DNA from: Lysobacter avium
Lineage (GTDB): Bacteria; Pseudomonadota; Gammaproteobacteria; Xanthomonadales; Xanthomonadaceae
NCBI RefSeq assembly: GCF_015209745.1
Contig: NZ_CP063657.1
Coordinates: 868,001-932,000, forward strand
Length of the DNA stretch: 64,000 nucleotides
Direction of reading: 5' to 3'
In this document: piece by piece, positions 28,012 through 39,400 of the stretch
How the letters are laid out: every line of letters starts with the position of its first letter
How positions within the stretch are numbered: position 1 is the stretch's first letter
Notes under the pieces: generated by a model
What the model saw: only the letters and a program-made list of their open reading frames with translations
Databases searched by the model: none
Told to the model about the DNA's origin: nothing
Made by a program: the position numbers and the translations under genes

Positions 28012-28041
28012 CTCAGGGGAGAACCCTGGACAGGGATGTAC

Positions 28042-28075
28042 GCCACCCGCTGCAGAGGGATCTGCAGCGGGTGGC
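28042..28075. repeat. Long perfect inverted repeat upstream of hutD
   Basis: Left arm 28042-28056 and right arm 28061-28075 form a perfect 15-base stem with a GGGA loop. It contains PstI-like CTGCAG in both arms. Sequence after it has no strong T-run. It may be a terminator for the ComEA-like gene, an RNA structure in the hutD leader, or a protein-binding site. Confidence 0.75.
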
Positions 28076-28140
28076 ACTGCTTTGGCAACGACGGAACCCG
28101 CGCAGATGGCAGACTGTCGTTCCGCCTCGATCTTCGCGCC

Positions 28141-28815
28141 ATGAATCCGCATGTCATTCCAGCCGCCGATTACCGCCGCGAGCGCTGGCGCAACGGCCTG
28201 GGCTGGACAAGGGAAATCAGTCGGGCTGGAGGTGAGTCGGACTGGGCGTGGCGCATGTCGATCGCGGAAGTCGATGCCGACGCCGCGTTCTCGCGTTTTC
28301 CCGGCGTCGACCGGGAAATATGCCTGCTGTCGGGGAACGGTGTCGACCTGTGTTTCGATGACGGGGCGCGCGAGGGGCTGGAGCCGCCGCACGGGCGGCA
28401 TCGCTTCGAAGGTGAGCGGGTAGTGCGTGCCGCGCTTCGCGACGGACCGGTGCAAGTGTGCAATCTGATGTGGCGACGCGACCGGGTCGGCGTCCGAGTC
28501 TGGCATCGTCCGCTGGTGGGGTCGATGGTGCTGTTTGCCGAGGTGGGAGACACATGGCTGCTGCATCTGCTGGCCGGACAGGCCCTGTTCTCGGGGGGCA
28601 GCGGACTCACCGGCTTGTCGGGCGGCGACACGGCTGTGCTCCGTTCCAACGTGGACGAGCGGGCGCGTTATGCCCTCGAGGGCGGCGGCGAGGCCTTGGT
28701 AGCACGCATCACCCCGGCGGCGTCCGGTGCGCGGGACGGCCATGTAATCGGGTGCGCGAGTGGCTCAGTAGACGTCCCGCCGGTATCGACCCTCGGCGAG
28801 GATGGCTTGCCATAG
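28141..28815 (+). CDS. HutD/Ves family protein
   Basis: 224 residues of the HutD/Ves cupin family, recognised by YRRERWRNGLGWTREI at the N-terminus and WRMSIAEVDADAAFSRFPGVDREICLLSG. Biochemical function is not established; HutD is linked to histidine use in some bacteria, but no hut genes are near. The 3' end overlaps the diflavin reductase gene by 51 bases on the opposite strand. Confidence 0.87.
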   Translation: MNPHVIPAADYRRERWRNGLGWTREISRAGGESDWAWRMSIAEVDADAAFSRFPGVDREICLLSGNGVDLCFDDGAREGLEPPHGRHRFEGERVVRAALRDGPVQVCNLMWRRDRVGVRVWHRPLVGSMVLFAEVGDTWLLHLLAGQALFSGGSGLTGLSGGDTAVLRSNVDERARYALEGGGEALVARITPAASGARDGHVIGCASGSVDVPPVSTLGEDGLP

Positions 28816-30462
28816 CGGCTCGCCCGCGATGGAAACCAGTGCAGCGTCCACCGCGGGCGCCATGCCTTTCAGGCTGCCGCAGACGTAAACGGACGCGCCC
28901 CGGTTCAGCCATTCCCGAAGGGCCTCGGCGCGCTCTGCGAGCAGGTGCTGGACGTAGCGTCGTGTCGCAGTGTCGCGCGAGAACGCGATGTCCAGCCGTT
29001 CGATCTGCCCGGAGCGGTGCCACGACTCGATGTCCTCACGATAGTGGAAGTCGTGGGCCGTGCTGCGTTCGCCAAACAGCAGCCAATTGTTTTGTCGACC
29101 GGTGTTGATCCGCTCCTGCAACAGTGCGCGCAGACCTGCCAGACCGGTGCCGTTGCCAATCAGGATCAGGGGGCGCCCGTCGCCGGGAGCGTGGAAATTG
29201 GGGTTACGGCGGATGCGCAGGTCGATCGCGCCGGGGGCATCGCTGTGCGCGGTCAGCCAGCCGCTTCCCAATCCAAGCGATCCTTGCTCATCGCGGGTCT
29301 GGCGCACCAGCAACCGCAGGCAGCCTTCGGCCGGGGTGGACGCGATGGAATAGGCGCGATGGGGCAGGGGAAGGAGCTCATCGGCGACTTGCTGTGCGCC
29401 CTTGCCCTGCACGTCGGCCTTCGAAGGCAAGCGGCTGGATGCGAGCAGTTCGGCCAAAAGCAGGTGGCGCTGCGCGTTCCTGGGGCCGGCGGTGACCGGT
29501 AAATCGCCGTCGAGGCCGCAGGCAGCAAGCCAGTCGCGGACGTGGTCGGCGGGGTTCTGCGGGCCTATCTCGGCCACGTCACCGGCCTGCCATCGCAGGT
29601 GGTCGGGGCTTTCGGGGGACATGCGCAGATCGAATACCGGTGCGCCGGGGCTGCCGTCGTTGAGGTGCCGACGCTGGTCCAATGACCAGAGTGCGTACGT
29701 GGGCGGCTCCCAGTCAACCTGGTCGGCTGCCCCGCAAAACCGGCCCAACAGGTACTGCCAGTGGCGCAGGGCGCCGGGATCGCCGTCGTCGACTTCGACC
29801 ACGTCAAACAGCGGGTGGGCGCCGGCGCCGCGAAGCCAGCGATCGATGTGGTGGCCAAACGCGCAGAAGTGCTGGTAGTCGCTGTCGCCAAGGGCCAGGA
29901 CGCCGTAACGCAGATGGTCGAGCCGTGCGTCGCCGGGATCCATGCATTGGCGAACGAAGTTGAAAGCGGGGTCGGGCGCGTCGCCTTCGCCGGTGGTGCT
30001 GGCGACGAACAGAACGTTGCGCGCGGCTCGCAGGGTTGGCAGGTCCAGATCCTCAATACTCGCCAGCCGGGCGGTTTGTCCCCCCTGCCGCAGCGAAACA
30101 GCGCTCCGCTCGGCGAGCGATTCCGCCTGTCCGAACTGGCTGGCGTGAACCACCAGCCATTGCGCCTCGTCCGCGGCCTCCGCAAACGTCGCGACGGCAG
30201 CCGAGGACACTGCTTGACGAGGTCGCGACCCGCGAAGCAGACGCACGAAGCCCGCATATCCGGCAATTACTGCGCCGGAGCCAAGCAGCGTGGATGTGCG
30301 CCACACCGGCGCGCTCCAGGTGTCGAGCTGCCATCGCGCCAGCGCAGCGGCGATCGCGGCGAAGCCCAGGATCAGCAGACCGTTGCCGAGCGAGCCGGCG
30401 CTCACCGATCGGCGGTAACGGTGTGCCCGAGACGATGCGACAGATGTCGGAATGCTGTTCAT
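28765..30462 (-). CDS. Membrane-anchored diflavin (FMN/FAD) NADPH reductase
   Basis: 565 residues. Two membrane helices at about 25-42 and 54-71, then a flavodoxin domain (VHASQFGQAESLAE, FVASTTGEGDAPDPAF, LALGDSDYQHFCAFG), an FAD domain with RAYSIAST, and an NADP domain with GNGTGLAGLRALL and VYVCGSLKGM. This is the layout of sulfite reductase alpha/cytochrome P450 reductases, but no sulfite reductase beta gene is present. It starts within the apbE stop (ATGA). In this operon it probably feeds electrons from NADPH to the PepSY membrane protein. That partnership is inference. Confidence 0.88.
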   Translation of the reverse strand: MNSIPTSVASSRAHRYRRSVSAGSLGNGLLILGFAAIAAALARWQLDTWSAPVWRTSTLLGSGAVIAGYAGFVRLLRGSRPRQAVSSAAVATFAEAADEAQWLVVHASQFGQAESLAERSAVSLRQGGQTARLASIEDLDLPTLRAARNVLFVASTTGEGDAPDPAFNFVRQCMDPGDARLDHLRYGVLALGDSDYQHFCAFGHHIDRWLRGAGAHPLFDVVEVDDGDPGALRHWQYLLGRFCGAADQVDWEPPTYALWSLDQRRHLNDGSPGAPVFDLRMSPESPDHLRWQAGDVAEIGPQNPADHVRDWLAACGLDGDLPVTAGPRNAQRHLLLAELLASSRLPSKADVQGKGAQQVADELLPLPHRAYSIASTPAEGCLRLLVRQTRDEQGSLGLGSGWLTAHSDAPGAIDLRIRRNPNFHAPGDGRPLILIGNGTGLAGLRALLQERINTGRQNNWLLFGERSTAHDFHYREDIESWHRSGQIERLDIAFSRDTATRRYVQHLLAERAEALREWLNRGASVYVCGSLKGMAPAVDAALVSIAGEPLWQAILAEGRYRRDVY

Positions 30463-31547
30463 GGCTGAGCGAGCGCGGCGCGGAATTGCGGAGTCATGCG
30501 CGTCTTGAAGCCGTCCCCGTCGTGCCATACGAAGAACGCGGCAAGCTTGCGGCGGCGGGCGTAGTCCCAGCCCTGCGCGGGACCGAGCACGGTAAGCGCG
30601 GTCGCCAGCGCGTCGGCATGCATGCACTCGGCGTGCAGTACCGATACCGACGCCAGGCCATGCGAGACCGGCTGGCCATTGCGGGGGTCAACGGTGTGCG
30701 AGTAACGCCGCCCGTTCTCAGCGAAAAAATGCCGGTAGTCCCCCGAGGTCGCCATGGCCATGCCGTCCAGCGCGACCACCGGTTGCGCGGCCGCTGCGCG
30801 CTCGTTGAAGTCGGCCGACGTGGGCTGCTCCACGGCAATCCGCCACGGCGTGCCCTCCGGCTTGTGGCCGTGGCTGCGCAGTTCGCCGCCCACCTCCACC
30901 AGGAAAGCCGGTACTTCCTGCGCCAGCAGATACCGCGTGACCTGGTCGACCGCGTAGCCCTTGGCGATTCCTGACAGATCCACATACGCGTCGCCCGGCT
31001 GGGTCATGACGCCAGAGGGGTCAAGCTTCAGGCGTTGCCAGCCCACGCGTGTCATGGTCCGATCAAGCAACGCGGCATCAGGCGCCCTGCGTTCCCCATC
31101 CGGCCCGAAACCCCACAGGTTCACCAGCGCGCCGACAGTCGGATCAAACGCCCCGCCGGTGTCGTGGGCCAGTGCAAATGCGGCGTCCATGACCTGGCGC
31201 ATTTCCGGCGGCAGCGCCTGTCGGGTGCCGGCCGCCGCGCGATTGAAACGACTCAGGTCGGAACCGGGCTCCCAGGTGCTCATCTGCGCGACCACAAGGT
31301 CGAGTTGCGTCTGCACACCGCGCTGAAGGTCGGGGATCGCCGCCGCATCGGCCTGCAGCGTCACCGACCACGTCGTGCCCATCGTCAGCCCGTTCATGCT
31401 TTGCATCGACTGGGCCGCGGACGGCGCGACCGTCGCCGTCTCCGCTGCTGTCGCTGAAGCCGTCGACGCCAGCGCCGCGTTTGCACACGCGGCCACAGAC
31501 ATTCCGCAGGCGAGCACCAACGCTGACAGGGCAGCCGCGAGACGCAT
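30459..31547 (-). CDS. apbE: FAD:protein FMN transferase
   Basis: 362 residues with an N-terminal export signal. ApbE motifs: MGTTWSVTL, MSTWEPGSDLSRFN, DLSGIAKGYAVD and YSHTVDPRNGQPV, with the metal-binding region HADALATALTVLG. It moves FMN from FAD to a Ser/Thr of a target protein in the periplasm. The probable target is the DUF2271 protein of the same operon, which has the required motif. It lies two bases after the DUF4198 stop and overlaps the reductase start. Confidence 0.93.
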   Translation of the reverse strand: MRLAAALSALVLACGMSVAACANAALASTASATAAETATVAPSAAQSMQSMNGLTMGTTWSVTLQADAAAIPDLQRGVQTQLDLVVAQMSTWEPGSDLSRFNRAAAGTRQALPPEMRQVMDAAFALAHDTGGAFDPTVGALVNLWGFGPDGERRAPDAALLDRTMTRVGWQRLKLDPSGVMTQPGDAYVDLSGIAKGYAVDQVTRYLLAQEVPAFLVEVGGELRSHGHKPEGTPWRIAVEQPTSADFNERAAAAQPVVALDGMAMATSGDYRHFFAENGRRYSHTVDPRNGQPVSHGLASVSVLHAECMHADALATALTVLGPAQGWDYARRRKLAAFFVWHDGDGFKTRMTPQFRAALAQP

Positions 31548-31549
31548 GC

Positions 31550-32362
31550 CTACTGGGGCAGCACTTCAAGCGTGGCGACGTAGCTCAGGCGCCGCTTGCT
31601 GGCCTCGGGGAGCGAGGTCAGCTCGTCGGTGCTGGTGGTCTCCAGCCAGTACATGCCCGCGTGCGGCCACTTCACCTGGAAGTTGCCGTCTGCACCGGTC
31701 ACCACCTTGATCTCCTCGGGCTGGTCGCGGTAACGGCTCGCGCCGGGGATGATCTCGACCTCCAGCCCGGCCGCGGGCTTGCCGTCGAGCAGCAGCTGGA
31801 AGGTCGCCGTCTCTTCGGCATACAGGTCATTCGGATGCGTCACCGGGACCATCTCGATGCCCTTGCCAGACGGCTTGAACACGCTCGTGGTCGGCGAGCC
31901 CACCGTGGCGAACGTCTCGACGCTGCCGAGCGACTCGGACACTTCAACGTCGGTCGCCGCCGCCGGAATCCCGGTCTTGAATTCGGCAGGGGTGCCGCGC
32001 CAGCGCTTGTTCTCACCGTCCAGCTGGTACTGGGCGAACATGCCGTGGTTGACCACCGCCAGCTTGTAGGTGCCTTGCTGGTTGAGCTCGAGATCGAACA
32101 CGCTGCGGTACTTGCCCGTCGCGCTGTTCTGCGGCGCCACGCGACTGCCGTCGGGCGAGGTGACCTGCAGGCCGTCCAGGCGCAGCGGCACGTGGTTGAA
32201 ATAGAACAGGTCGTTGGAAACCGCCGCGTCGACGGTCATCCACGCGCCGGTGTCGGAAAACACGGTGGCGGAGGGGTGCAGCCAGGTCTTGTGCGCGGAG
32301 GCAGCCGATGGCGCCAGGCACAGCGTGAGGGCAGTGGCGATGCCGATGAGCTTGAGGTTCAT
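31550..32362 (-). CDS. DUF4198 periplasmic protein
   Basis: 270 residues. A signal peptide ends in SAASA, so the mature protein probably begins HKTWLHPSAT, i.e. with an N-terminal His and a second His five residues on. DUF4198 proteins are predicted metal-binding periplasmic proteins of beta-sandwich fold. The C-terminal half has the repeat-type segment AGLEVEIIPGASRYRDQPEEIKV, like carboxypeptidase-regulatory domains. AAAGGAAT precedes the ATG at 32362. It sits between the DUF2271 gene and apbE. Confidence 0.88.
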   Translation of the reverse strand: MNLKLIGIATALTLCLAPSAASAHKTWLHPSATVFSDTGAWMTVDAAVSNDLFYFNHVPLRLDGLQVTSPDGSRVAPQNSATGKYRSVFDLELNQQGTYKLAVVNHGMFAQYQLDGENKRWRGTPAEFKTGIPAAATDVEVSESLGSVETFATVGSPTTSVFKPSGKGIEMVPVTHPNDLYAEETATFQLLLDGKPAAGLEVEIIPGASRYRDQPEEIKVVTGADGNFQVKWPHAGMYWLETTSTDELTSLPEASKRRLSYVATLEVLPQ

Positions 32363-32406
32363 TGCGGATTCCTTTGGGGATCGGTGTGGATGTGGCCGGC
32401 GCAGGC

Positions 32407-32961
32407 TCAGGGCGTTATCGAGACGCGCACCTGACCCAGCTCGGAAGTGCCTTTGGCCTTCAACTGCTGCGGGGACGAGCCGGGCCAGGTGATGGGCACG
32501 CTGACGACTTCGCGGCCGCCGACTTCCCGCGCGGCCTCGATGACCAGTTCGTACCTGCCGGGCGGCAGGCCCTTCAGCGGCCCTTTTGCGTCGTTGAAGC
32601 GCAGCTGGTGCTGTCCGGCCGGGCGCGTCGCGCCGCTTACCCCGTCCACTGGCATAGGCGTGGAGCGTCCGCTGCGGCGCCACCACTGGCGCATGTCCTT
32701 CAACCACTTGCTGCCTTCGCCGGCTTTCATCTCGACGTCGTACCAGACCGCCAGGTTGGCGGCGACGCTGTGGTCAGGCCGCTCCAGCCACATGGCCACG
32801 TACGGGCGGTGGTACTCGGACACGTTCAGGCGTGGAATCTCGACGCTGATCTCCAGCTCGGCGGCTGGCAACGCGGCGGGCAGGACCAGCATCGCGAACA
32901 GCGCGGCTGTGGCGATTGCACGCAAGCGCGCAGGTGGCTTGCTGAAGAGACGGTGCGGCAT
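32407..32961 (-). CDS. DUF2271 periplasmic protein with FMN attachment motif
   Basis: 184 residues with a signal peptide ending LPAA. The DUF2271 core is YVAMWLERPDHSVAANLAVWYD and KWLKDMRQWWRRSG. It contains DGVSGATRP at 106-114, which matches the ApbE recognition pattern Dxx(S/T)GA(S/T); T112 would carry FMN. apbE lies in the same operon. It is therefore probably a periplasmic flavoprotein taking electrons from the PepSY membrane protein. The motif is seen directly; flavinylation is inferred. Confidence 0.88.
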   Translation of the reverse strand: MPHRLFSKPPARLRAIATAALFAMLVLPAALPAAELEISVEIPRLNVSEYHRPYVAMWLERPDHSVAANLAVWYDVEMKAGEGSKWLKDMRQWWRRSGRSTPMPVDGVSGATRPAGQHQLRFNDAKGPLKGLPPGRYELVIEAAREVGGREVVSVPITWPGSSPQQLKAKGTSELGQVRVSITP

Positions 32962-32980
32962 CGGGCAGGACCTCTGGGTG

Positions 32981-33619
32981 TCAATGCATGAAAAGGATGA
33001 TCAGCAGCGCCGGCAGCGCCACGCCGAGGCCGACCATCGGCCAGGTTTTTCCGCGCTGGCGCGAATGCATGTGCAGCAGCCACAGGCCGGTGAGGGCGAA
33101 CAGCAGGCACGCCACCGCGAACAGGTCGATGAACCAGCGCCAGGCCGCGCCGGTGTTGCGGCCCTTGTGCAGGTCGTTGAGCCAGGCGATGACGCCGCGG
33201 CTGGTCTGTTCGTATTCCAGCTCGCCGGTGGCGCGGTCGATCGCCAGCCAGGCATCGCCGCCCGGGCGGGGCAGGGAGACATACACCTCGTCGTCCGCCC
33301 ACTCGGCGCTGCGGCCCTTGGCAAGGACGTTCATCTCCGTTGCCAGCCAGTCGACGACGCTGGCCGGCAGGGGCGCTCCCTCGGTGTAATCCCCCGAAAG
33401 GCTGCGCAGGACACTCGCCGGCAGCGTGTCGGTGCGGGTGTCCACGCGCGGGGTCGCCTCGATCTGGGCAGCATGGTTGAGGGTGATGCCGGTGGCCGAA
33501 AACACCAGCAAGGCCGCCAGGCTGACGGCCGCGCTCATCCAGTGCCATCGGTGCAGCGTCTTCAGCCACCAGCCCCGGGTGGAGCTGGCGCTGCTGGTGG
33601 TTGCGGCAGTGGCGGTCAT
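32981..33619 (-). CDS. PepSY-associated transmembrane protein
   Basis: 212 residues from the ATG at 33619; longer starts at 33655 or 33682 would place the coding region at or over the operator. Three membrane helices: WHWMSAAVSLAALLVFSATGITL, FIDLFAVACLLFALTGLWLL and GLGVALPALLIILF. A PepSY-type periplasmic domain lies between the first two, with LAIDRATGELEYEQ. Histidines beside the helices (LHRWHW, LNHA, LHKGRN, LLHMHS) could hold heme b. It is the first gene of the flavin operon and likely carries electrons across the inner membrane. Confidence 0.85.
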   Translation of the reverse strand: MTATAATTSSASSTRGWWLKTLHRWHWMSAAVSLAALLVFSATGITLNHAAQIEATPRVDTRTDTLPASVLRSLSGDYTEGAPLPASVVDWLATEMNVLAKGRSAEWADDEVYVSLPRPGGDAWLAIDRATGELEYEQTSRGVIAWLNDLHKGRNTGAAWRWFIDLFAVACLLFALTGLWLLHMHSRQRGKTWPMVGLGVALPALLIILFMH

Positions 33620-33667
33620 GGAGTCGCGGTCACCGGGATTGGCACGATCGGCAATCATATTGCAGAT

Positions 33668-33683
33668 GAGAATCAGTCGCAAT
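33668..33683 (-). promoter_or_regulatory. Fur-like operator upstream of the PepSY operon
   Basis: The plus strand reads GAGAATCAGTCGCAAT, preceded by GAT. It matches the GAGAATCATT-type half of Fur boxes, and 14 of 16 bases match the sequence at 39314-39329 upstream of the Fiu-like receptor, in the same orientation to the gene. It lies about 50 bases before the PepSY start. Confidence 0.55.
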
Positions 33684-33712: not shown

Positions 33713-35902
33713 TCAGAAATCCACGTTCACCGACAGCCACAAGCGCCGGCCGGCCTCGCTGGTGCTGCGGGTGTTGGCGTACGCCACGGTGCCGTTATCG
33801 TCATACGGCAGGTAGTCGACGAAATCCTTGTCGAACAGGTTGTACACCGCGGCGTTGAGGCTGATCGCGTCGCTCACCCGGTAGCGGCCGCCCAGGTGGA
33901 ACTGGGAGTAGGACTTGTAGTCGCCCAGCTGGTCCTGCGCGGCGCCCGCACCCCGGTAGCGCGCGCTGCGGTACTCGCCGCGCAGGTACAGGGCCAGCGC
34001 GTCGGTCGCCTGCCAGTTCACGCTGCCGTTGAGCAGGTTCCTGGGCGTGTTGGTCAAGGGCGTGCCGTTGGCGCTGCCGCTTTTCTGCTCGCTGTCGGTG
34101 CGGGTGTAGTTGAGTTGCAGCTTCCATGCCTCGGCCAGCGGAACCTGCATGGCGAATTCCGCGCCGCGGGTCACGGCCTTGTCGATGTTGACGGTCTGGC
34201 CGAGCGTCGCCGAGCGCGGAAACCAGCCCACGTCCACGCAGCTTGAGCCGGAGAAGTCCGCGGCGTTGTAGGCGGCCTGGCTGAGCCCGAATGCGCAGTT
34301 GGCTACCGGCGTACCGCTGGCGATCTTGTCGCTGAAATCGTTGTTGAACACGGTCAGGCTGGAGCTGAAGCCGTTGTCGGCCGCGTAATACACACCCAGC
34401 TCGGTGGTGGCGCTGGTTTCCGGCTTGAGCGTCGGCGTGCCGATCAACGGGATGGTGCCCTGGCCGCCGAAGCCCTTGATGCCCGGGGTCAGGTCCTCGA
34501 TGTTGGGCGAACGGTAGCCTTCGCTGTAGCCGCCCTTCACGACCCAGTTCGCGTTGGCGTTCCAGACCAGGTACGCACGCGGACTGAGGTGGCTGCCAAA
34601 GGTGCTGTGGTCGTCATGGCGCGCGCCGACGGTGAGGTTCAGCGCGTCGTTGATGCTCCACTCGTTTTCGGCGAACAACGCCCACTGGTGGAACTCGAAG
34701 GCGTCGCTGGCCACGCCGTCGACCAGTTTTGCGTCCAGGTACTGGCCACCGACGGTCAGCTTGTTGCTGCCGATGTCGGTAACCAGTTTGGTGTCGAAGA
34801 CGCGATTGCGGTTTTCCAGCTCGCGCGGGCTGCCGGCGCCCGCCGTGCCGGCCGGCAGCAGCCGCCCGATCGTCTCGGTGGTGGTTTGCTGCAGGCTGCT
34901 CTCAAGTGCGCCCAAGTCGTAGCGCGCGTCCCACGCCAGGGTGGCCTGGTCGCGGTTGAAGCGCAGGCTCGGAGCGTATCCGCCGGCGCCCAGGGTGCCC
35001 ATCTGGCCGGTGCTGTTGTCGTACTCCTGGCGTCCGCTGGTGACGTCCAGCCACAGGTCGTGGTCGTCCGATGGCGTGAGCGCCAGTCGCGCGCCCACGT
35101 TGTGGCTGTCATAGCTGACCGGGTTGGCGCCCATCCAGGGGACGATCTCCTCGCCGGACAGGTCCGTGTATGCGATGTCGGAGGCGTCGCGCTTGAACCA
35201 GCCGCCACGCAGCGACAGGCCGAGCAGGTCGCGGACCAGGGGACCGTCAACGAAAAAGTTCGCGCCATACAGATTGCCGAAGGACGAATCCTCCTGAAGG
35301 CTGGTCTCCATCCCGACCGAGCCTGCCCACGCCGCGCCGACCTTGCGGGTGATGATGTTGATCACCCCGCCCATCGCATCCGATCCGTACAGGGTCGACA
35401 TCGGGCCGCGGATCACCTCGATGCGGTCGATCGCCGACATCGGCGGGATGAAGTTGTTCGCGGTGTTGCCAAAATTGTTCGGCGCGACGTTACCGGAAGT
35501 GTTCTGGCGGCGGCCATCGATCAGCACCAGGGTGTAGCTGGACGGCATGCCGCGCAGGCTGATCTGGGGCGCGCCGGTCTTGTCCACGCCGACTCCGATG
35601 TCCACGCCTTCCACGTTCACCAGCGCGTCTGCCAGGCTGTGGATCGGCTGCTTGACCAGTTCCTCGCGGGTAAGCACCGTGATGCTGGCCGGCGCCTCGC
35701 GCACCATCTGCTCGAAGCCGGCGGCGGTGACGACGACCGCATCCAGATCGATCGGGCCGGCGGTGGCCGCGTCGCCGGCCACTCCGGTCGCTGCACTGGC
35801 GATGACCGGAGACGACAGGGCAAGCAGCAGCGCCAGCCCAAGGCCGGCACGACGGTGATGGGCAAGCGGTGCGATGGAACGGGTCGGACGGGGCGCGGTC
35901 AT
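33713..35902 (-). CDS. TonB-dependent outer-membrane receptor (FepA/CirA/BfeA-like)
   Basis: 729 residues: signal peptide, plug domain with ITVLTREELVKQPIHSLADALVNVEGV, SLRGMPSSYTLVLIDGRR and IEVIRGPMSTLYGSDAMGGVINIITRK, then a 22-strand barrel ending in LSVNVDF with the terminal Phe needed for outer-membrane assembly. It imports a ferric siderophore or similar using TonB energy. A Fur-like site lies about 140 bases upstream. It precedes the PepSY operon, which has its own operator. Confidence 0.92.
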   Translation of the reverse strand: MTAPRPTRSIAPLAHHRRAGLGLALLLALSSPVIASAATGVAGDAATAGPIDLDAVVVTAAGFEQMVREAPASITVLTREELVKQPIHSLADALVNVEGVDIGVGVDKTGAPQISLRGMPSSYTLVLIDGRRQNTSGNVAPNNFGNTANNFIPPMSAIDRIEVIRGPMSTLYGSDAMGGVINIITRKVGAAWAGSVGMETSLQEDSSFGNLYGANFFVDGPLVRDLLGLSLRGGWFKRDASDIAYTDLSGEEIVPWMGANPVSYDSHNVGARLALTPSDDHDLWLDVTSGRQEYDNSTGQMGTLGAGGYAPSLRFNRDQATLAWDARYDLGALESSLQQTTTETIGRLLPAGTAGAGSPRELENRNRVFDTKLVTDIGSNKLTVGGQYLDAKLVDGVASDAFEFHQWALFAENEWSINDALNLTVGARHDDHSTFGSHLSPRAYLVWNANANWVVKGGYSEGYRSPNIEDLTPGIKGFGGQGTIPLIGTPTLKPETSATTELGVYYAADNGFSSSLTVFNNDFSDKIASGTPVANCAFGLSQAAYNAADFSGSSCVDVGWFPRSATLGQTVNIDKAVTRGAEFAMQVPLAEAWKLQLNYTRTDSEQKSGSANGTPLTNTPRNLLNGSVNWQATDALALYLRGEYRSARYRGAGAAQDQLGDYKSYSQFHLGGRYRVSDAISLNAAVYNLFDKDFVDYLPYDDNGTVAYANTRSTSEAGRRLWLSVNVDF

Positions 35903-36041: not shown

Positions 36042-36063
36042 GATGATAATGGTTCTCAGTTGC
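36042..36063 (-). promoter_or_regulatory. Fur-like operator upstream of the FepA-like receptor
   Basis: The sequence GATGATAATGGTTCTCAGTTGC contains TGATAATGGTTCTCA, close to the Fur consensus of repeated GATAAT units with GAGAA(C/T) on the opposite strand. It lies in the 215-base gap between piuC and the receptor gene, in its promoter region. Confidence 0.6.
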
Positions 36064-36117: not shown

Positions 36118-36810
36118 TCAGGTTTCCGCCCAGAGCCGCAGCAGGTTGTGGTAAACCCCCGTGAGCTGAAGCAGCGCGGCGGAATTCTCCCCCGAAGCGG
36201 TCAGGGCCTGGATCGCGGTATCCATCTCGAACAGCATCCGGCGCTGGGCGTCATTGCGGATCAGGCTCTGGATCCAGAAAAAGGCGGCCAGCCGGGCGCC
36301 CCGCGTCACCGGCTGGACCATGTGCAGGCTGCTCGACGGATACAGGATCAGGTCACCCGCGGGCAGCTTCACTTCGTGCGTGCCATAGGTGTCGTGGATC
36401 ACCAGCTGGCCGCCGTCGTACTCGTCGGGTTCGGACAGGAACAGCGTGCAGGAGATGTCGGTGCGCATCGTCGCGGCGACCTGCCCCGGCGGGGCGGCCG
36501 GGGTCATCACTGCGCCGTCGACGTGGAGGCCGTAGGTGCCGCCGCCCTGGTAGCAGTTGAAACGCGGCGGCAGCGCACGCAGGGGCAGGGCGGCGGCGAA
36601 ATACAGCGGGCTGGCGGCGAGTGCGGCAGTGACGAGCTGCCCCAACTCGTGTCGCACCGGCGAGCCATCGGGCAACTGCAGATTGCGCTTGACCCCGGCG
36701 CCCTGGGGGCCGACGGTCTCGCGGCCATCGGTCCAGGCGGCGCTTTCCAGCGTCTTGCGGATCCGGGACAGGGACGCGTCGTCCAGTACGCCGGGGACAT
36801 GCAACAGCAT
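36118..36810 (-). CDS. piuC: PKHD-type Fe(II)/2-oxoglutarate hydroxylase
   Basis: 230 residues. The iron ligands are H and D in [10 protein letters not shown] and His in [14 protein letters not shown]; the Arg of the latter binds 2-oxoglutarate. The family is the PiuC/YbiX group, which is always close to Fiu/PiuA catecholate receptors and is repressed by iron. It starts 12 bases after the Fiu-like receptor gene. Substrate unknown, possibly a siderophore. Confidence 0.92.
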
Positions 36811-36822
36811 CGCGGGCTCCGA

Positions 36823-39150
36823 TCAGAAGTGGTAGTTGACGGTGAACATCATCGAGCGCGGCGTGCCGGGGGTGTAGCGGTAGCCGCTCTTGTTGATCGC
36901 GGCCACATAGTCCTTGTCCAGCAGGTTGTACAGGTTCAGGCGCAGATCCAGATTGGGCGATACGGCATAGCTGGCGACGGCGTCCACGACCCAGTAGTCC
37001 TTGGTGTACGCCGGGGTGCCCACCGCGCCGTCCACGCCGCGCTTGAGCGCGCCGGAGTAGCGCGCGCCGCCGCCGATGGTTATCCCGTTGGGGAAATCGT
37101 AGGTCGACCACGCGGTGAATGCGCGCTTGGGCGTGTAGGTCAGGTCGGTGGATCCGTCAGTGCTTACCGCCGGACCAGACAGCACGTCGGTGTCCATCAC
37201 GGTGAACCCGGTCGACACCGACCACGCATCGGTCACCTGGCCAACCGCGCTGAGCTCCACGCCGCGGACCCGCTTGCGACCGGTCTGGTAGTACTGTTGA
37301 TCGACCGGATCGCGGATGAGCTCGTTGCTGATGCGGGTGTCGTAGAGCGCGGCCGTCAGCATCAGGCGCTGGTCGAGAACGTTCCACTTGGTGCCGATCT
37401 CGGCAGTGCGGGCTTTTTGCGGGTCGAGTGCCGGGTTGTCTGGACTGCGCTCCGCGTCGCTCAATTCCAGGCTCCCACCGCCGGGCGGTTGCTGGGCGAC
37501 CGCGTAGTTGGCGTAGAAGCTGCCGTTGGCCACCGGTTTGTAGAGCGCACCGAGCTTCCAGTTCAGCAGCGTGTCGGAGATGCGCGCATCCACCCCGGGC
37601 ACGATGGAGCCTTCATCGAGCAGTCCGCAATCCGGGCCGCGACGACCACCGCAGGGCACGGTGCTCTGGAATTGCGTCTTGTAACGGTCGGCGCGCACAC
37701 CGCCGTTGAGCTGCCATTGCTCGTTGAATGCAATGGTGTCGAACACGTACGCCGCCACGGTGTCGGTGCGACCCTCGCCGCGGGCGCCGCTGCGCTCCCA
37801 CTGCAGGCCGGTCACGTCGGGGTTCGGTCGATACAGGTTGACTGCCGGCCACGCCGTGCCAGTCACAGCACGCATGCCGTAGGTGTCGAGCTCTTCGCGG
37901 GTCAGCTCAATCCCGGCGCTGAGGTCGTGCCGCAAGCCGCCGGCGTCGAACCGGGTCGCCAGCGCGGTCTGGTTGGTCATGATCGTGTTGCGCTGGTTCT
38001 TGAACGTCGGCAGCGAGCGCGCCACGGTCCAGCCCGACGGGTCATCCAGGTCCGGCGTGACCAGATTGGCGGTCGAACCCATGAACGCCGTCAGCAGGTA
38101 GTCCTGCTTGGTGCTGCCCCAGCGGGTGGTGTTGATGAGTTGCGTCGCGTCGGACAGGTCGTGCTCGATGCGCAGCGTCGCCATGTCGGCGGTGACGTCG
38201 TCGTAGTCTGACAGCGTGCCGTAAAAGTTGCTGGACGCGACCGGGTCGGCATCGCCGAGCTGCGGACGGCTCGGATCGGGCGAGCTGTAGCCGGGCAGGC
38301 CGATCGTTGGCACGCCGCCGTCGGGCAGGTTGTCCTGCTTGACGTGCAGCAGATTCAGGGTGGTGCGCGTCGGGGTGCCCAGGCCGAAAGCCAGCGATGG
38401 AGCGATCGCCCAGCGCTTGTTCTCGATCGTATCGCGGCCGGGAACGCCGCTGTCCTGCGCCATCAGGTTCAGGCGCAGCGCGCTCGTGCCGCCCAGGGTC
38501 TGGTTCCAGTCCGCAGTGACGCGCTTCTGGTCGGCGCTGCCGTAGGACGCACTGACCGAAGTACGGTCGTGGCCGTGGGCCTGCTTGCTCACCAGGTTGA
38601 TCGCGCCGGTAGGGGCGGTGCGGCCGTTGTCGGTGCCCGCGGGGCCCTTGGCCACCTCGATCTGCTCGATGTTGAACACGTCGCGCGAGATCGATCCGAG
38701 ATCACGCACACCGTCTACAAAAATGCTGCCGGAGGTGTCAAAACCGCGCAGGTAGATCGCATCGCCGGTCGTCGTGTTGCCGTTCTCGCCCGCGTAGAAC
38801 GTGCCGACGCCGGGGCTGTTGCGGAGCGCTTCGGTGAGGTTGGTCGCACCCCGCTCGTTGAAGAGGTCGCTGCCGATCACGTTGATGGTCTGGGTGGTGT
38901 CCAGCAGCGGCTGGCTGAACTTCGGCGAGGACAGTTGGCCCGAGGAATAGACCTTGCCGCGCTTGCCCTCGACGTGGACCGTCTCGAAATCCTTGGCGTC
39001 GGCGGCAGGGCCACCGTTCGACTGGGCCGTTGCGGCCAGCGGTGCGGCGAGCACGAGCCCGGTGAGCAGCGAGACCGACAGGCTGGAGTGTTGGGCCGAG
39101 CCCGTTTTGCGGAGTGATACGGCGTGCTTGCGACTGGTGATCGGGGACAT
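36823..39150 (-). CDS. fiu: Catecholate siderophore TonB-dependent receptor (Fiu/PiuA-like)
   Basis: 775 residues. Signal peptide ends TATAQ-like (LAATAQ). The plug has LDTTQTINVIGSDLFNERGATNLTEALRNSPGV, YLRGFDTSGSIFVDGVRD and IEVAKGPAGTDNGRTAPTGAINLVSK, characteristic of Fiu/PiuA. The barrel ends MFTVNYHF with terminal Phe. It takes up monomeric catecholates and related siderophores. It is followed by piuC. A Fur-like site is about 165 bases upstream. Confidence 0.92.
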   Translation of the reverse strand: MSPITSRKHAVSLRKTGSAQHSSLSVSLLTGLVLAAPLAATAQSNGGPAADAKDFETVHVEGKRGKVYSSGQLSSPKFSQPLLDTTQTINVIGSDLFNERGATNLTEALRNSPGVGTFYAGENGNTTTGDAIYLRGFDTSGSIFVDGVRDLGSISRDVFNIEQIEVAKGPAGTDNGRTAPTGAINLVSKQAHGHDRTSVSASYGSADQKRVTADWNQTLGGTSALRLNLMAQDSGVPGRDTIENKRWAIAPSLAFGLGTPTRTTLNLLHVKQDNLPDGGVPTIGLPGYSSPDPSRPQLGDADPVASSNFYGTLSDYDDVTADMATLRIEHDLSDATQLINTTRWGSTKQDYLLTAFMGSTANLVTPDLDDPSGWTVARSLPTFKNQRNTIMTNQTALATRFDAGGLRHDLSAGIELTREELDTYGMRAVTGTAWPAVNLYRPNPDVTGLQWERSGARGEGRTDTVAAYVFDTIAFNEQWQLNGGVRADRYKTQFQSTVPCGGRRGPDCGLLDEGSIVPGVDARISDTLLNWKLGALYKPVANGSFYANYAVAQQPPGGGSLELSDAERSPDNPALDPQKARTAEIGTKWNVLDQRLMLTAALYDTRISNELIRDPVDQQYYQTGRKRVRGVELSAVGQVTDAWSVSTGFTVMDTDVLSGPAVSTDGSTDLTYTPKRAFTAWSTYDFPNGITIGGGARYSGALKRGVDGAVGTPAYTKDYWVVDAVASYAVSPNLDLRLNLYNLLDKDYVAAINKSGYRYTPGTPRSMMFTVNYHF

Positions 39151-39313: not shown

Positions 39314-39329
39314 GAGAATCGTTCGCAAT
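39314..39329 (-). promoter_or_regulatory. Fur-like operator upstream of fiu
   Basis: The plus strand reads GAGAATCGTTCGCAAT, preceded by GCAATC. It differs at two positions from the element upstream of the PepSY operon. The 250-base gap 39151-39400 between fiu and the Rieske gene otherwise shows no gene. Confidence 0.5.
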
Positions 39330-39400
39330 AGCGAAGACGAAACACGGCGAAAGATCGCCGCGTGGCGCGCGTGTGTCGAACAGCGAACCTTGGCGCCGAC

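Follow-up and report, generated by a model that had tools for sequence, protein, structure and literature searches.

What is a compact gene cluster for covalent flavin attachment doing beside iron-uptake genes in Lysobacter avium, and how does its flavin transferase recognize its target? The cluster lies on contig NZ_CP063657.1 within a stretch of 64,000 nucleotides (the window), where five minus-strand genes occupy 28765–33619. Read in the direction of transcription, their products are a PepSY_TM-like membrane protein, proteins of the DUF2271 and DUF4198 families, the flavin adenine dinucleotide (FAD):protein flavin mononucleotide (FMN) transferase ApbE and a diflavin reductase, and the intergenic gaps are 19, 44, 2 and −4 bases (Table 1). 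An earlier reading based on the letters alone (the sequence-only reading) had described five consecutive, tightly packed genes, and we find their place, order and tight packing as it gave them. We consider it likely that the locus serves iron acquisition and belongs to the known PepSY/DUF2271 type of flavinylation system, in which a Tyr of ApbE and the Ala preceding the flavin acceptor of DUF2271 change together.

The flavinylation motif and its transferase

The DUF2271 protein contains DGVSGATRP at residues 106–114, exactly where the sequence-only reading had placed it, and the SGAT at 109–112 satisfies the motif [S/T]GA[S/T], with T112 as the expected flavin acceptor. A DUF2271 protein from Amantichitinum is flavinylated at the motif Thr, and replacement of this Thr abolishes the label (PMC8238504). 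In addition, His51 and His118 of DUF2271 are invariant in 80 of 80 sequences.

The catalytic triad of ApbE consists of Ser/His/Asp, as in the Vibrio enzyme with Ser241-His257-Asp285 (PMC12052999), and is conserved here as S268, H284 and D312. The triad Ser opens the segment SGDYR, whose Tyr271 (S+3) adjoins the active site in sequence; in Listeria FmnB, Arg262, located five residues past triad Ser257, contacts both FAD and the triad His (PMC12052999). The window carries the canonical pair, namely, SGDYR together with GAT. The cluster ApbE is the sole ApbE in 13 of the 14 genomes searched, the exception being the genome of the window with three, and a search of 33 genomes for FMN_bind proteins found none in 31. 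Each cluster ApbE appears to be dedicated to its own DUF2271, and both partners would therefore be free to change together.

Covariation of the ApbE loop with the DUF2271 motif

Named genomes were scanned with DUF4198 as query, and the best 80 of 238 loci, ranked by DUF4198 similarity and mostly from the same family as the window, were compared. Among 80 DUF2271 sequences (79 named loci and the window), the residue before the acceptor is Ala in 24 and Pro in 56, where the Pro-type motif reads DGV or DGI followed by [S/T]GPT. To these were added 60 loci from a phylum search, 80 further loci (mostly from two families of other classes and some from the family of the window, with part of the places listed) and a second locus of the window's own genome. 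ApbE is present within 5 kb of DUF2271 in 196 of the resulting 221 loci and not in 25, and removal of 10 further loci (gaps, strand, low score) left 186 usable pairs. Eighty-one of these combine GA with Tyr at S+3, 5 have GA without Tyr, 11 have a different dipeptide with Tyr and 89 have neither, and Trp occupies S+3 or S+4 in 66 of the 80 Pro-type pairs as opposed to 2 of the 86 GA pairs. With one ApbE per 50%-identity cluster (n = 22), the same four categories contain 10, 0, 1 and 11 pairs (Fisher p = 1.7e-5).

A dependent model of change was compared with an independent one (4 degrees of freedom) on two trees, the first built from PepSY and DUF4198 (167 taxa) and the second from ApbE without the loop. 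The likelihood ratio is 30.3 for Tyr271 and 17.1 for Arg272 on the first tree, and 40.9 and 22.4, respectively, on the second. With its value of 30.3, Tyr271 ranks first of 239 variable columns (92 from ApbE, 89 from DUF4198 and 58 from PepSY), followed by one DUF4198 column and another ApbE column at 20.5 each. In the reverse scan, where Tyr271 was fixed and 192 columns were ranked (41 from DUF2271, 91 from DUF4198 and 60 from PepSY), Ala111 comes first with 25.6 and the next column reaches 19.8. Changes of the motif share a branch with a change of the Tyr in 5 of 10 cases on the first tree and in 5 of 11 on the second.

Several observations weigh against a simple coupling of the two residues. 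The rule is not strict, with exceptions on both sides: six Pro motifs and five other non-GA motifs are paired with Tyr, and five GA motifs lack it. Independent contrasts are few, with 5 agreeing, 0 opposing and 5 tied on the first tree (p = 0.031) and 6, 0 and 5 on the second (p = 0.016). This count is cruder than the likelihood ratios, and Tyr271 is tied with one Leu column by it. Moreover, one of the shared-branch changes depends on the position of the root, and the −2 Gly of the motif is outside the top 12 of the 192 columns in the reverse scan. The tie with the Leu column, the dependence of one branch on the root and the absence of a signal at −2 slightly lower our confidence in the main reading.

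These points bear on the possibility that the covariation mostly reflects shared ancestry, with separate causes altering the two features in a small number of clades. In its favour, half of the contrast pairs are tied, and a single clade, with motif and Tyr altered on one and the same branch, accounts for 55 of the non-GA sequences. However, columns of the co-inherited DUF4198 and PepSY, which as controls come from the same genes as the tree itself, reach likelihood ratios of at most 20.5 and 15.1, respectively, compared with 30.3 for Tyr271, and Tyr271 and Ala111 select each other in both scan directions. We regard shared ancestry as an unlikely explanation, although one with a real claim to consideration.

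Less probable still is that the variant motifs mark a loss of flavinylation, whereby DUF2271 would work without covalent FMN while motif and ApbE drift. In another ApbE target, substitution of G to A and of A to V reduces flavinylation to about 50% (PMC12052999), which speaks for such loss and also indicates that these positions matter to ApbE. Similarly, an ApbE within 5 kb is missing from 9 of 119 non-canonical loci, but a nearby ApbE is absent from 16 of 102 canonical loci too. Among the non-GA pairs, the acceptor Thr, the triad Asp and Lys196 are each retained in all 100, the triad His in 98 and the first Asp in 85, and the triad Ser is present in 96 and replaced by Thr in the other 4. This retention of acceptor and catalytic residues speaks for continued flavinylation.

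Returning to the coupling itself, we suggest that Tyr271 may contact the −1 residue directly and that flavinylation may continue at the variant motifs. The Tyr at S+3 of SGDYR accompanies Ala at the position preceding the acceptor Thr, whereas with an altered dipeptide, usually containing Pro, the ApbE loop mostly lacks Tyr and usually carries Trp. The evidence leaves us evenly divided over the broader proposal, in which recognition between ApbE and DUF2271 has been rewritten several times, the SGDYR loop reads the −1 residue such that Tyr fits Ala and Trp-loops fit Pro, Dxx[S/T]GA[S/T] represents a single setting in a code that can be tuned, and the DGV[S/T]GPT motifs of Xanthomonas, Stenotrophomonas and Pseudoxanthomonas are true sites. 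Our searches of open-access text in PubMed Central (figures excluded) did not find a coupling between Tyr271 and the −1 residue described, and the sections of PMC8238504 available to us give the motif as [S/T]GA[S/T] alone. Should the covariation hold, it would locate the part of ApbE that reads the target and account for variant sites overlooked by motif searches; flavin-tagging, which depends on a single recognized motif (PMC12052999), would also gain ApbE/tag pairs that are distinct by nature.

A putative electron path to ferric iron

The PepSY protein (212 residues) matches PF16357 (E 3e-79; 266.2 bits, cut-off 27) and PF03929 (42.0 bits, cut-off 28.8), and displays the three hydrophobic helices and several His expected from the sequence-only reading. 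Seven His are located at positions 23, 26, 49, 151, 183, 185 and 212, of which His49, His151 and His185 are found in 80 of 80 aligned sequences, the window included, and His26 in 76 with gaps in the other 4. Haem is likely to be bound through the conserved His, as judged by this conservation. The PepSY profile gave no match to PDB sequences at E values up to 10. FoxB (7ABW) is PepSY-like with two haem sites of two conserved His each (PMC11334425), yet its structural match to the PepSY protein is weak and it is longer (360 versus 212 residues); the available part of PMC11334425 mentions no DUF2271 partner. A role of the PepSY protein as an importer, as proposed for some PepSY proteins (PMC7190382), was considered and dropped.

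The reductase, a two-helix protein in the sequence-only reading, has flavodoxin and NAD-binding domains, both over cut-off, and one clear and one weaker helix at its N-terminus; a simple hydropathy scan finds two N-terminal helices in 73 of 79 relatives. Among solved proteins, CysJ and cytochrome P450 reductase are its closest relatives, and the CysJ model covers residues 371–597 below its curated cut-off (237 versus 668 bits). No separate FAD_binding_1 match was found in this protein. Its domains make the reductase the probable entry point for electrons from reduced nicotinamide adenine dinucleotide (phosphate), NAD(P)H.

DUF4198, for which the sequence-only reading had offered no link to the electron path, likely acts as a metal-binding periplasmic protein. 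From its best start, the ATG at 32362, it comprises 270 residues with a signal peptide, and cleavage between SAASA and HKTW, judged by eye, leaves His24 at the mature N-terminus. His24 is conserved in 81 of 81 sequences and, in another set, in 46 of 46, and His57 and His176 are also conserved. The fold matches Zcp (9MHx; Cu, Zn, Co) and IsDUF4198 (9GCB; Ni), and residue 1 of the 9GCB chain aligns with His24, but identity to the DUF4198 protein is only 14–17%. A counterpart of the second ligand of 9GCB, His18, was not located, there being no sequence match and a structural alignment in ranges only. A phmmer search of DUF4198 against the PDB gave nothing significant (best E 0.13), and the family profile is significant for Zcp chains only, which are annotated there as formyltransferase.

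Taken together, ferric chelates would enter the periplasm through TonB receptors, while the anchored reductase would draw electrons from cytoplasmic NAD(P)H. The electrons could cross the membrane on PepSY haem held by the conserved His and be accepted by FMN, fixed by ApbE on T112 of DUF2271, which would then reduce ferric iron; DUF4198, with its metal-binding fold and N-terminal His, may take up the freed ion or aid its release. A path from NADPH through PepSY haem and FMN to iron was already put forward in the sequence-only reading. It fits the anatomy of the locus and repeats, or nearly so, a published proposal (PMC8238504) that is plausible, and unproved, at this locus; the description of the path as complete is too strong because we infer both the partner contacts and the final acceptor.

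The cluster cannot be regarded as a new system, since the same operon has been published in Caulobacter crescentus (PMC3751524). CC3059–CC3063 (CCNA_03155–03159) encode, in the same order, a putative transporter (named as PepSY-family in PMC12004947), DUF2271, DUF4198, ApbE and a sulfite-reductase-type flavoprotein, a likeness drawn from published gene descriptions. Iron limitation induces that operon and loss of Fur derepresses it (PMC3751524), and transposon insertions in it reduce fitness in ethylenediaminetetraacetic acid (EDTA) (PMC12004947). In the window, in contrast to Caulobacter, receptor and dioxygenase genes immediately precede the cluster. Meheust et al. 2021 (PMC8238504) report 3220 PepSY-like flavinylation clusters, with DUF2271 in 2833, DUF4198 in 1500 and a TonB receptor in 231; PepSY-like protein, ApbE, DUF2271 and DUF4198 are common to these and the window, where a free-standing diflavin protein serves as the reductase, whereas 1077 PepSY genes in that study have an NAD-binding domain. 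The locus represents a further case of the published iron-reduction design and places DUF4198 as its likely metal-binding part.

Given DUF4198, the cluster might instead handle or reduce nickel, copper or zinc, in line with the nickel affinity of IsDUF4198 (dissociation constant 18 nM; PMC12537917, section 6) and the metals held in Zcp structures, but this is improbable in view of the neighbouring Fiu-like siderophore receptor and PiuC-like dioxygenase, the response of the Caulobacter operon to iron and Fur, and the (weak) Fur-like sites before three genes at the locus.

Table 1. Positions of the cluster and neighbouring features within the window
Feature	Position	Strand	Remarks
Diflavin reductase, N-terminal membrane anchor	28765..30462	-	Flavodoxin PF00258 and NAD-binding PF00175
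ApbE, FAD:protein FMN transferase	30459..31547	-	PF02424 E 5e-88; closest solved 5mgy, 3pnd
ApbE S268-G-D-Y271-R272	30732..30746	-	S268 triad Ser; Y271-R272 vary with DUF2271 motif
DUF4198 periplasmic protein	31550..32362	-	PF10670; likely metal-binding; mature N-terminal His codon 32291-32293
DUF2271 periplasmic protein	32407..32961	-	PF10029 E 1e-52; expected ApbE substrate
Flavinylation motif D106-G-V-S-G-A111-T112-R-P	32620..32646	-	T112 acceptor; A111 −1 residue
PepSY_TM-like membrane protein, three helices	32981..33619	-	Likely haem-bearing transmembrane electron carrier
Fur-box-like site before PepSY gene	33662..33680	+	12/19 to E. coli consensus
TonB-dependent receptor	33713..35902	-	Nearest CfrA/CirA-type models, below their cut-offs
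Fur-box-like site before receptor 33713-35902	36045..36063	-	14/19
PKHD-type Fe(II)/2-oxoglutarate dioxygenase, PiuC/YbiX-like	36118..36810	-	NF003975 332.8 bits (cut-off 180)
TonB-dependent receptor, Fiu/PiuA-like	36823..39150	-	NF007349 1124 bits (cut-off 686)
Fur-box-like site before Fiu-like receptor	39314..39332	-	12/19

Iron-related neighbours

Both receptors and the dioxygenase lie upstream of the PepSY cluster on the same strand. The arrangement resembles CciT/CciO, a PiuA/PiuC-like pair in which a TonB receptor adjoins a dioxygenase and which is required for iron under chelation (PMC12004947), with the difference that the receptor and dioxygenase genes of the window and the PepSY cluster form a single run.

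Fur-box-like sites were scored over 19 positions against the E. coli consensus. Scores of at least 12 of 19 occur at 29 positions of the window on both strands, and the top two (15) are located away from the three genes concerned. The sites are suggestive only of Fur control.

Distribution and further loci

Co-occurrence of the five genes in relatives, proposed as a check by the sequence-only reading, is observed in the same order and strand in 75 of the best 80 loci; of the other five, three have no ApbE seen, one starts at DUF4198 on a contig edge and one lacks the reductase. Judged by gene order, this co-occurrence is not chance. The best named matches are from Lysobacter. Among 99 genomes of the same family, a hand count gives strong PepSY matches in 43, strong DUF2271 in the identical 43 and strong DUF4198 in 42 of these 43. 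A class-level survey of 114 genomes found matches over cut-off for DUF2271 in 3, DUF4198 in 13 and PepSY_TM_like_2 in 10, and therefore DUF4198 occurs without DUF2271 too.

Three loci (L169, L170 and L174, Steroidobacter-type and one metagenome-assembled genome) have canonical GAT, PepSY, DUF4198 and reductase, and ApbE was not found in the locus. Four distant DUF2271/ApbE loci (L254, L255, L257 and L258) have RPT, RET or GPT motifs and an ApbE loop without Tyr, and their long DUF2271 frames suggest fusions.

A second DUF2271 cluster is present in the same genome (C1:1464970-1468642; locus L003 9971-13643), where DUF2271 with DGVSGAS accompanies ApbE with SGDYR. Its PepSY protein is a 742-residue PepSY-flavodoxin-reductase fusion, so that the genome has split and fused versions, and the neighbouring frames resemble two-component regulators. 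The third ApbE (C1:1254227-1255048; L351) has SGGYG in place of SGDYR, in surroundings that by eye resemble a nos (nitrous oxide reductase) operon, and an FMN_bind match is found nearby at C1:1246310. Finally, a plus-strand gene at 28036-28815 in the window encodes a HutD/Ves-family protein (PF05962) and is convergent with the reductase gene.
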